Part shown: positions 14,235 through 16,997 of the stretch, piece by piece
Position numbering within the stretch: the stretch's first letter is position 1
Layout: every line of letters starts with the position of its first letter
Assembly (NCBI GenBank): GCA_017411235.1
Contig: JAFPMR010000235.1
Coordinates: 1 to 20,203 of the forward strand
DNA: 20,203 nt
Reading direction: 5' to 3'
DNA from: Bacilli bacterium
GTDB lineage: Bacteria > Bacillota_I > Bacilli_A > RF39 > UBA660
Translations under genes and position numbers: made by a program
The notes under the pieces: generated by a model
The model's input: the letters and a program-made list of their open reading frames with translations, nothing else
Told to the model about the DNA's origin: nothing
The model's database searches: none

Positions 14235-14254
14235 AAGATAGTAATAACTATCTT
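14235..14254 (-). terminator. Terminator after the 14248 gene
   Basis: Arms AAGATAGT (14235-14242) and ACTATCTT (14247-14254) with loop AATA, followed by U on the minus strand. The gene's stop (14248-14250) is inside the arm. Confidence 0.82.
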
Positions 14255-14772
14255 CTTAGCATTAATCTATCAGAATCTTGTTCCTCTAATACTTCTATAT
14301 TAGTACCATCTAATCTTTCATAATCAAATGGTTCAGGAGTTAACTCTAAAGTAATAAGTTTAAAACCTTCTGGATATAAATATTCAACACCTTTATCAGT
14401 ACTTATTCTAATTGGATCATAATATTCATCAGTTTCTTCTCTATAAGCTACTACTGTTTTAAATGTACCAACTTGTACTCCATCATAAATATCAAATACA
14501 AAAGTATCATCTATTCTAACATATTTAACATCCATGTCTTCTAAAGCTGCTCTTAGATATTCTCCTTTGAAGCTTTTAATACCATAGTTTTTATCAACAT
14601 GACTAATATCAACATAATTATCCTCCGTTAAGAAATCATTTAAATAACCTTTAACTCTATTCACTTCATGAGTTTTATATAGATGCAGACTTCCACCTAC
14701 TGCACCAGCCATAAGAAGACCAGCTAATAAAGCAGAAGCAAATTTCTTTCCAAATTTCATATTCTTAACCAT
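14248..14772 (-). CDS. Exported or membrane-anchored protein of unknown function
   Basis: I do not recognise this 174-residue protein. It has a basic start (MVKNMKFGKKF) and a small-residue hydrophobic segment (about 11-30, rich in Ala and Gly) that may be a signal peptide or anchor. The rest is acidic and beta-prone, with no Cys and no known catalytic motif: FLTEDNYVDISHV, YVRIDDTFVFDIYDGVQVG and an acidic C-terminus. GAGGGGATT before the ATG fixes the start at 14772. It is monocistronic: it has its own promoter (14797-14825) and a terminator. Confidence 0.75.
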   Translation of the reverse strand: MVKNMKFGKKFASALLAGLLMAGAVGGSLHLYKTHEVNRVKGYLNDFLTEDNYVDISHVDKNYGIKSFKGEYLRAALEDMDVKYVRIDDTFVFDIYDGVQVGTFKTVVAYREETDEYYDPIRISTDKGVEYLYPEGFKLITLELTPEPFDYERLDGTNIEVLEEQDSDRLMLRR

Positions 14773-15071: not shown

Positions 15072-16787
15072 TGGACTATATAATTTCTTATACATTTTAG
15101 ATGATTTCATTAATTCATCATGTGTTCCTTGGTCACTAACTTTGCCTTCATCTATAACATAAATAACATCTGCATCCATAATAGTAGAGAGTCTATGAGC
15201 AACTATTATGATTGTATGTGTTTTAACTAAGTCATCAATAGTCTTCTTAATATACTCTTGTGATTCATTATCTAAAGCTGAAGTCGCTTCATCAAATAGA
15301 ATTACTTTTGTATTCTTAAGTAGTGTTCTTGCTATTGCAATACGTTGTTTCTGACCACCAGATAAATTAACTCCACCTTCACCAATCAAAGTATCATACT
15401 TATTAGGTAAAGACATAATATAATCATCTATATAAGCTTTCTTACAAGCTTCTCTAACTTCTTCTAAAGTAATATCTTCTTTAACAACTCTAAAATTATC
15501 TAAAATAGAAGAATTAAATAAATAAGGAGTTTGTCTAATAACAGAGATATTATCTCTTAAACTTTGCTCACTCAATTCTTTAATATCTATTCCATTAACT
15601 AAAATACTGCCTTCTACACTATCAAAATATCTTAATAATAAATTAAACAATGTACTCTTTCCTTGACCAGATTTACCTACAACAGCAATCTTCTTATTAG
15701 GTTCAAGTTTCATACTTAAACCTTTTAAAATTAATTCTTCATCGTCACGATATTTAAACTTAACATCCTTGAATTCTATTCTTACTTTCTTATCTTTAAT
15801 TTCTTTCTTGCCAAACTTCTCGTCTTCATATAACTTGTTATTTAGTATTTCATCAATTCTCTTTAAAGATACTGTAACTTTATTAAAGCAAACCCCAAAT
15901 TCTGATAACGATTCAACAACATCATCAATTCTCCAAATATATTTTTCTATTAAAACGAATGATGCTAGTAAAATACTTCCTTCAAATACTTGAATACCTA
16001 AAGTAAGTAATATCACAAATTGAATTACAAAATAACACAAGTTATTCAAGGCATAATAGTATGTCTCATTAACCCCTATTTTTCTTTGTTTACCAAATAG
16101 ATTTTCTATATTAACATAGATTCTTCTATTGATATTTTCTTTAATACCTAGAGCTTTAATCTCTCTAATACCTGTAATATTTTGTGTAGCAACTTTAATA
16201 TAATTGTCAGATTCTTTCTTTATCTCCTCATGTATCTTCTTAAGTTTAGGATAGTATATATTAGATAAGATAAACATAACAACAACTAATAGTAGTAACT
16301 CTAAACCTACATATAAAGACACAGTAAATGAAACAGCAACAATTATAATAGCAATAACCAATCTACAAGTTAATTTAATTAATTTCTGTAATAAATCTAA
16401 AATACGATCAGGATCTGTATACATACGATTTATAAATTCTCCAACACCAATCTCTTCAAACGCGATTGCTGGCATGTCAGATACTTTAACATATAAATCC
16501 TTATTAACATTTTCCATAAATTTCTTTTCTAATTTATTATAGATTAAATCTGTAGGTAGTTGAATAAATACCCAAGCTATTATAATTACAGCACTCCATA
16601 ATATAAGATATTTAATAAAAATTGATTTCTCACCATCAGCTAGCGCTTGAAATGCTTTCGCCCATATAAAAGCATTAGCTAATGGTTCAAAGTATTTTAA
16701 AATAGTTAAGATAAGATACAAAGATAATTCAAGTTTATCGTTTTTAAAATATCGGAACAATATTTTAAAATTCTTTAAACCTTTCAT
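15054..16787 (-). CDS. ABC exporter, fused membrane and ATPase domains (multidrug type)
   Basis: The 577-residue half-transporter has an N-terminal membrane domain of about six segments (residues ~20-300) and a C-terminal ATPase with all motifs intact: Walker A GKSGQGKS (371-378), Q-loop Gln419, signature LSGGQ (475-479), Walker B VILFDE (495-500) and switch His531. It probably works as a homodimer in the membrane; no partner half-transporter is next to it. It begins directly with the membrane domain, so there is no N-terminal C39 peptidase that would mark a bacteriocin exporter. The substrate is unknown; drugs, lipids or peptides are possible. GGAGG precedes the ATG. A 26-codon leader ORF and an attenuator-like structure lie just upstream, which suggests induction by translation inhibitors (see findings). 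Confidence 0.9.
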   Translation of the reverse strand: MKGLKNFKILFRYFKNDKLELSLYLILTILKYFEPLANAFIWAKAFQALADGEKSIFIKYLILWSAVIIIAWVFIQLPTDLIYNKLEKKFMENVNKDLYVKVSDMPAIAFEEIGVGEFINRMYTDPDRILDLLQKLIKLTCRLVIAIIIVAVSFTVSLYVGLELLLLVVVMFILSNIYYPKLKKIHEEIKKESDNYIKVATQNITGIREIKALGIKENINRRIYVNIENLFGKQRKIGVNETYYYALNNLCYFVIQFVILLTLGIQVFEGSILLASFVLIEKYIWRIDDVVESLSEFGVCFNKVTVSLKRIDEILNNKLYEDEKFGKKEIKDKKVRIEFKDVKFKYRDDEELILKGLSMKLEPNKKIAVVGKSGQGKSTLFNLLLRYFDSVEGSILVNGIDIKELSEQSLRDNISVIRQTPYLFNSSILDNFRVVKEDITLEEVREACKKAYIDDYIMSLPNKYDTLIGEGGVNLSGGQKQRIAIARTLLKNTKVILFDEATSALDNESQEYIKKTIDDLVKTHTIIIVAHRLSTIMDADVIYVIDEGKVSDQGTHDELMKSSKMYKKLYSPEVLDF

Positions 16788-16805
16788 AATCTTTCCTCCA
16801 TATAA

Positions 16806-16830
16806 AAATAACTATTTTGAATAGTTATTT
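16806..16830 (-). terminator. Weak intrinsic terminator ahead of the ABC gene (attenuator)
   Basis: Arms AAATAACTATT (16806-16816) and AATAGTTATTT (16820-16830) pair over 11 bp around a 3-base loop, followed by UUUUUAUA on the minus strand. It has only one G-C pair, so it is weak. It lies between the leader ORF and the ABC ribosome-binding site, and the arm at 16820-16830 is also needed by the competing hairpin. Confidence 0.65.
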
Positions 16831-16943
16831 ATTTAATACAAGTTTTTCTCAGAACTAAAATTCGTGAGAAAATGTATAAATAAATCTATTCTTTTCTCCT
16901 GTAATAAATTTTTGATTTTGAATTTTATTGCTCATTTTCTCAC
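16820..16943 (-). promoter_or_regulatory. Candidate ribosome-mediated attenuator (four-segment leader RNA)
   Basis: The RNA contains: segment 1, SD and start codon (16933-16943); segment 2, leader codons 16-26 (16861-16890); segment 3 (16820-16854); segment 4 (16806-16816). Segments 1 and 2 share a perfect 11-bp complement (GTGAGAAAATG). Segments 2 and 3 pair through four collinear blocks (AATAG, ATTTATTT, ATACA, TTTTCTCA) with only small bulges, 26 bp in these blocks. Segments 3 and 4 form the terminator. The pairings exclude each other. Inference: a ribosome stalled early in the leader frees segment 2 to pair with 3, preventing termination. Confidence 0.65.
16855..16935 (-). CDS. 26-residue leader peptide of the ABC transporter
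   Basis: A 26-codon ORF starts MSNKIQNQKF and ends in FSHEF. It has AGGAG seven to eight bases before its ATG, and a consensus-like promoter 34 bases upstream. Codons 16-26 form one arm of a long hairpin with the sequence downstream of the stop. No signal peptide, GG leader motif or membrane helix is present, so it is more likely a regulatory leader peptide than an exported substrate. A comparable arrangement is bmrB ahead of bmrCD in B. subtilis. No residue-level family match is known to me. Confidence 0.6.
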   Translation of the reverse strand: MSNKIQNQKFITGEKNRFIYTFSHEF

Positions 16944-16968
16944 TCCTCTCTTTCTAAAATTCAATAGT

Positions 16969-16997
16969 AATATAACACTCATCAAAAAAGATGTCAA
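16969..16997 (-). promoter_or_regulatory. Promoter of the leader ORF and ABC transporter
   Basis: On the minus strand, TTGACA (16997-16992), a 17-base spacer and TATATT (16974-16969) with an extended TGT. The -35 box lies in the downstream arm of the lemA terminator, so the two signals share bases. Confidence 0.85.

Follow-up and report, generated by a model that had tools for sequence, protein, structure and literature searches.

An ABC exporter gene on the minus strand of the window (the whole 20,203-nt stretch of contig JAFPMR010000235.1, from a Bacilli bacterium) is preceded by a leader that we propose to be a peptide-independent, ribosome-operated attenuator, with ribosome occupancy of a short open reading frame (ORF) as its input. 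We put the probability of this reading at about 0.78. The wiring of the switch is well supported by sequence comparison: an open leader ORF, a covarying pairing of the leader Shine-Dalgarno (SD) sequence and start codon with the end of the ORF (1:2b), an antiterminator pairing (2a:3) and a terminator or its replacement all appear to be kept in relatives. That this predicted 1:2, 2:3, 3:4 logic recurs there with different sequences is the strongest evidence.

According to our proposal, the off state would prevail when the ribosome is absent or has done with the leader ORF. Segment 1 would then pair with segment 2b, and this anti-antiterminator would leave segment 3 free, so that the terminator would form in vivo and the exporter would be off. 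Were a ribosome detained on the start codon or the codons just after it, segment 1 would be covered; segment 2a would then pair with segment 3, no terminator would form, and the exporter would be transcribed. The natural signal is likely to be an inhibitor of translation by which ribosomes are trapped during initiation or early elongation, and it is reasonable to suppose that the exporter would remove ribosome-targeting antibiotics. Exporter control of this type would extend across an order of uncultured gut bacteria.

The leader and its exporter gene

The leader lies on the minus strand, in the roughly 230 bases that separate a gene at 17571-17017, which from its sequence we take to be lemA (its sole NCBIfam match, MamQ, is far below cut-off), from the exporter gene (16787-15054). 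This gap contains a near-consensus promoter, a 26-codon ORF with an SD sequence, and a weak terminator immediately 5' of the exporter SD. The promoter consists of TTGACA (16997-16992), a 17-nt spacer and TATATT (16974-16969), matches the consensus at 11 of 12 positions, carries a TG before the -10 element and is kept in relatives. Transcription would start near 16962. Promoter-like sites are as frequent in the stretch scanned as expected by chance (19 versus 17.8, no excess), and the promoter discussed here is among the two best matches. Among 73 leaders, 70 have a best-scoring promoter whose -35 element matches at least five of six positions. A GAATTT motif lies at or near the transcript start (16961-16954 in the window) and is kept in many leaders.

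Re-reading the minus strand bore out the coordinates and the element layout given in the first-pass annotation, which had described a leader-ORF attenuator working by ribosome stalling. The leader ORF (16935-16855; 26 codons plus stop, MSNKIQNQKFITGEKNRFIYTFSHEF) runs from an ATG at 16935-16933 to a TAG at 16857-16855; it has an SD sequence, is translatable by sequence and precedes the terminator. Segment 1, comprising the end of the leader SD and the start codon (16943-16933, GTGAGAAAATG), is complementary to segment 2b within the ORF (16874-16864, CATTTTCTCAC), a leader anti-SD, over the perfect 11 bp that had been claimed. Segment 2a (codons 15-21, 16892-16872) is the antiterminator arm, and its partner, segment 3 (16841-16818), overlaps the 5' arm of the terminator (16830-16820). 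The terminator itself pairs 16830-16820 with 16816-16806 in an 11-bp stem, followed by a U-run at 16808-16804. With -6.3 kcal/mol and one G-C pair this stem is as weak as the annotation had noted, and a standard terminator scan misses it because the scan needs three G-C pairs. By sequence and folding alone, the anti-antiterminator, the antiterminator and the terminator are mutually exclusive. The comparison with shuffled controls that the annotation had called for came out in its favour: the region 16787-16962 folds at -33.4 kcal/mol versus -21.3±3.1 kcal/mol for dinucleotide shuffles (z -3.96), none of 200 shuffles being as low.

The exporter has 577 amino acids, comprising a membrane domain and an ATPase (ABC_membrane and ABC_tran), and an SD of its own (GGAGG, 16799-16795). 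Its top NCBIfam match is MsbA, at 334 bits versus a cut-off of 602, and PADLOC returned partial matches only, to mad3 and mad8. One ABC gene rather than a pair stands behind the window leader; the next gene (14248-14772) has no match in NCBIfam or Pfam. In plasmid and phage collections, a 2401-base DNA query gave only partial matches, none covering 80%, and there is thus no sign of a mobile copy in them. Exporter matches at three related loci (L015, L023 and L067) span about 2.5 kb, where a second tandem ABC gene may be present.

Conservation of the switch in relatives

Related loci were taken from a scan of genome contigs, in which the best 80 of 135 confirmed exporter loci were used. They come from uncultured bacteria mostly labelled Bacilli, Erysipelotrichaceae, Bacillales, Tenericutes or Firmicutes, with a minority labelled Clostridia, Mycoplasma or just "bacterium". 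Together with the window, a leader was recognised in 59 of these 81 loci, 46 in a first pattern search and 13 more in a second, the patterns having been composed after inspection of the upstream sequences. Among the other 22 loci of the same set (window plus best 80 of 135), four are cut short (L019, L033, L063 and L077) and 18 have no recognised leader. Three loci without a recognised leader (L027, L050 and L062) carry an ACUACU-type hairpin and a T-run just 5' of the exporter, perhaps attenuator remnants. A quick tree of 92 exporters, 89 of them scored, places leaders in both deep clades, with 17 rows lacking one; it is midpoint-rooted and leaves out L067 and L130, the ten rows making up one deep clade came in via their leader, and L079 was scored as terminator-positive although no convincing terminator is present there.

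The leader is closely associated with the exporter. When 12 genomes were searched with the leader pattern, ten had a single match each, nine of which lie before the exporter; the tenth (G012) starts 4 bases from the contig end, so that the following gene is out of sight. A covariance model (R1) matched 27 of 385 genomes of the order, once each, where about four chance matches per run are expected at the E value used (up to 0.01 per genome) and the stricter filters lose weak matches. Five of the 27 are its own training leaders (L001, L003, L034, L057 and L060) and 22 are new. All 27 precede an ABC exporter, 25 directly and two with small genes between (two in G307, one in G336). The same model, run under the same settings on 395 genomes of the class, gave seven matches, all of them already among the 27. 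The intervening genes code for a P-loop kinase-like protein (AAA_18) and a 193-aa protein in L125 (604-1685), and for a 196-aa protein in L126 (4525-5115); neither the 193-aa nor the 196-aa protein has a Pfam family above cut-off.

The conservation check proposed in the first-pass annotation speaks for its wiring: relatives keep the pairings as well as the leader ORF, and the SD/start pairing shows covariation. For 1:2b, the window leader reaches z -3.7, with one of 200 shuffled targets as good. Over the 59 leaders the median z against dinucleotide-shuffled targets is -3.6; at most 2 of 200 shuffles are as good in 44 leaders, at most 10 in 47 and more than 10 in 12, segment 1 having been extended by 4 bases for 13 leaders in this test. 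Native partners pair at -17.4 kcal/mol versus -12.8 kcal/mol for partners swapped between the 59 leaders, and in 37 of them no more than 10% of the swaps equal or surpass the native pairing. Whole-leader folding gives a median z of -2.6, with 48/59 below -1.64.

When 33 of the 59 leaders are aligned with MAFFT, 93.6% of the cells at 1:2b pair. Double-change cells number 44 versus 14.7±3.3 in shuffled alignments (0/500 as high) and at most 12 in slid controls, and the covariation score is 0.408 versus 0.189±0.018 (0/500) and at most 0.162 in slid controls. Six of the 11 pairs change on both sides, a count that 82 of 500 shuffles and one slid version also reach; taken alone, it is not above the controls. 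In a set of 23 leaders, one of the 11 pairs changes on both sides, with 12 double-change cells versus 3.8±1.9. Among the new R1 leaders that were inspected (14 of 22), 1:2b is weak in L125 (12/200) and L126 (40/200).

A structured and conserved RNA with GAAUUU conserved at the 5' end of many of its copies could also be expected of a riboswitch-like leader that binds a small molecule or protein instead of sensing ribosomes. We consider this very unlikely, as the strongest conservation among the 33 aligned leaders falls on the SD/start and its complement and the frame is kept open. Furthermore, no Rfam family matches the window leader at gathering score, the two matches at E<1 within it being at chance level and far below cut-off.

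The pairing 2a:3 is strong in the window (16892-16872 with 16841-16818; -13.5 kcal/mol, z -5.3, 0/200 shuffled targets as good). Over the 58 leaders with any hairpin called, it has a median z of -2.1, with 18 leaders matched by no more than 2 of 200 shuffles and 33 by no more than 10, and is statistically weaker than 1:2b. Native partners give -9.3 kcal/mol versus -6.7 kcal/mol when swapped, and for 16 of 50 leaders they are better than 90% or more of the swaps. Terminator stems vary by group (AACUAUU, AGUCAC, ACUACU, GCCAU, GAGUC) and segment 2a varies alongside; as the stems do not align, terminator covariation was left uncounted on alignment A1. The new R1 leaders provide a cleaner test of 2a:3, having been found via a model of 1:2b. 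A hairpin resembling a terminator (-3.8 to -12.0 kcal/mol) is present in all 14 that were inspected, and in 13 of them at most 18 of 200 shuffles pair as well with 2a, the exception being L118 (72/200).

Three leaders of one clade near that of the window (L005, L007 and L072) have no stable terminator. A hairpin over the exporter SD (-6.6 to -9.0 kcal/mol) stands in its place, and segment 2a pairs with the anti-SD arm of this hairpin (z -3.4 to -3.6; 0, 3 and 3 of 500 shuffles as good). In this sub-clade the switch would thus end in SD sequestration instead of termination, the output having been swapped and the sensor part retained. L052 seems to resemble these three: the initial test of 2a missed its segment (421/500), and a later duplex, with hand-chosen ranges and no shuffle control, came to -12.4 kcal/mol.

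These observations bear on the question whether the leader regulates at all. A constitutive leader, in which 1:2b does no more than curb wasteful translation of the short ORF and the hairpin terminates in part, would suit the weakness of the terminator and the 18 of 81 loci (window plus best 80 of 135) without a recognised leader. It would not account for 2a:3, which is useless without a switch and yet kept with different sequences, nor for a sub-clade that keeps the 2a pairing with a different output, and we regard it as improbable.

Ribosome position and the leader peptide

The ribosome-operated attenuator makes predictions on where a ribosome should act, and these were calculated at equilibrium for 50 of the 59 leaders, with the ribosome modelled as a 30-nt mask at each codon. 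The mean terminator probability is 0.84 without a ribosome, 0.55 with one at codon 1 and 0.44-0.58 over codons 1-6; it rises to 0.69, 0.79 and 0.86 at codons 7, 8 and 9 and to 0.92-0.97 at codons 10-20, and is 0.50 at the stop codon. In the window leader, the value of 0.94 without a ribosome changes to 0.43, 0.42, 0.70, 0.73, 0.20 and 0.46 at codons 1 to 6 and to 0.61 at the stop codon. As long as the 3' arm of the terminator is left out, the antiterminator of the window is favoured with the ribosome at codons 1-10 or the last codons, and also without a ribosome, where it reaches 0.71 versus 0.01 for 1:2b (mean of the antiterminator over the 50 leaders, 0.54). In the window leader the antiterminator is the equilibrium state before the 3' arm is made, and the order of folding matters: the off state would require that 1:2b forms first during transcription. 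The first-pass annotation had a ribosome in the first ~10 codons release the antiterminator. This range is recovered while the 3' arm is unmade; in the complete leader it shrinks to codons 1-6, which act unevenly, and the stop codon.

Translation of the leader seems to matter, judging from its sequence, and its product does not. In all 59 leaders the leader frame stays open over 17 codons or more, compared with 10/59 for the +1 frame, 1/59 for the +2 frame and 20% of shuffles, and the ORFs range from 18 to 39 codons. In 34 pairs of similar leaders, substitutions at codon positions 1, 2 and 3 number 125, 121 and 111, and outside 2b 109, 112 and 102; the pairs share members and are not independent, and the count is no formal test. 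Purifying selection on the peptide would give an excess at position 3. As the substitutions are spread evenly, the peptide looks unselected, and with its sequence seemingly irrelevant, "stalling" would most likely mean arrest at the start codon or within the first few codons. The ribosome-stalling attenuator of the first-pass annotation thus keeps its wiring, supported by comparison, and is refined in that the peptide sequence seems not to count. The leader would provide a comparative case of an attenuator switch kept while its peptide drifts freely, separating ribosome-position sensing from arrest-peptide sensing.

Two alternatives assign a role to the peptide. In an attenuator of the ermC or cat-86 style, a particular leader peptide would stall the ribosome together with a particular drug. 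Close relatives do share peptides (MSNKIQ...FSHEF, and the ANSKQFIF group), although the shared FSHEF end is dictated by the 2b pairing; between groups the peptide differs, no motif or conserved arrest peptide was seen in common among the leaders, and the even distribution over codon positions also argues against such an arrest, which we think improbable. A secreted role for the 26-aa product, as signal or bacteriocin with the ABC protein as its exporter, is suggested by the proximity of a small ORF to an exporter gene, and is extremely unlikely given that the peptide differs between groups whereas the frame and the RNA pairings persist. Finally, no run of regulatory amino-acid codons shared by the leaders was seen, their composition being spread over F, L, I, K, S and N.

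A peptide-independent attenuator would not be without precedent. Among the systems compared, the vmlR leader of Bacillus subtilis is the closest in logic and bmrBCD the closest in target gene. The vmlR leader has an anti-antiterminator, an antiterminator and a terminator, of which the first is disrupted by a ribosome held at a short upstream ORF (uORF). Of three uORF sequence variants, two perform like the wild type; initiating ribosomes are stalled by lincomycin and retapamulin, and an SD-sequestering hairpin is present there too (PMC9226507). Its three-codon uORF lies in a bulge, with a single-stranded SD before the helix, and the target is an ABC-F ribosome protector. Here, the SD and start codon form the helix with the end of an ORF of 18-39 codons, and the target is an ABC exporter.

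The first-pass annotation had cited bmrB-bmrCD of B. subtilis as its precedent. This holds for a ribosome-attenuated ABC exporter behind a leader ORF, although vmlR is closer. The bmrB-bmrCD system is controlled by ribosome-mediated transcription attenuation and reported to be induced by 50S-targeting drugs (PMC4191407); it involves a gene pair and a terminator inside the leader coding region, in contrast to the one exporter gene and the terminator after the leader stop described here. The trp leader of E. coli, as summarised in the same paper (PMC4191407), shares the exclusive 1:2, 2:3, 3:4 pairing with the window leader, which differs in lacking a run of regulatory codons. The E. coli toiL-topAI uORF responds to antibiotics of several classes, and tetracycline and retapamulin hold ribosomes on its start codon; control there works through SD access and Rho-dependent termination, the target is a toxin-antitoxin system and some drugs act at specific later codons (PMC12121999). 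A survey of attenuators lists ABC leaders, one of them before a multidrug exporter in lactobacilli (PMC2965389). We found no earlier description of the present leader among titles and abstract starts in the open-licence literature, which is no proof of absence.

A promoter palindrome shared with rpsP

The -35 element of the window promoter is the right arm of a palindrome, TGTCAAC-N8-GTTGACA (17013-16992), which is also found at rpsP promoters of related genomes (rpsP, for ribosomal protein S16, being the name we presume from the gene's sequence). Of 14 genomes searched for the exact pattern TGTYAAC-N8-GTTGACA, 10 contain it twice, one contains it once and three lack it; the reversed pattern used as control is absent from all of them. 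In those 10 genomes, one exact site is the exporter promoter and the other the rpsP promoter. Allowing arms with at least 6/7 matches, the palindrome is present at 42 of 44 rpsP promoters (loci within L145-L189), ten of which had been fetched because of it; among the unselected ones it is present at 32/34. It is found in 34 of the 70 exporter leaders, out of 73, that have a good -35 element. The chance rate is 0.6-0.7% per promoter.

We prefer to regard the palindrome as a putative operator; more broadly, it is a candidate operator and/or part of the lemA terminator. An outer stem with a U-run, resembling a terminator, accompanies 17 exporter and 13 rpsP copies. Convergence is possible, because the left arm follows of necessity once a terminator includes a consensus -35 in its 3' arm. 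The spacer is 7 in four rpsP copies, a shortening less easily accommodated by an operator. A plain terminator was judged insufficient, since 9/34 exporter and 13/42 rpsP copies have no U-run.

Sharing of this site by the exporter and rpsP hints at a connection between export and ribosome production. Our tentative suggestion, which we hold to be possible and rather less than probable, is that in this order of uncultured gut Bacilli ribosome status would act on the exporter at two levels: through the peptide-blind attenuator, which would sense ribosome occupancy of the leader start codon, and, at roughly half of the exporter promoters, through the palindrome, whose exact form would be restricted to these and the rpsP promoter and by way of which a putative regulator would join ribosome making and export in a two-promoter regulon. 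A literature search gave no title on such a site; in a paper on Mycoplasma repeats, rpsP is named once, in a table on the repeats of that species. Beyond the exporter and rpsP promoters, sites with one mismatch to the palindrome were found three times in eight genomes (inside a gene, at a gene end and in an intergenic region). In G005, the exporter and rpsP promoters both carry the rarer right arm GTTGACT.
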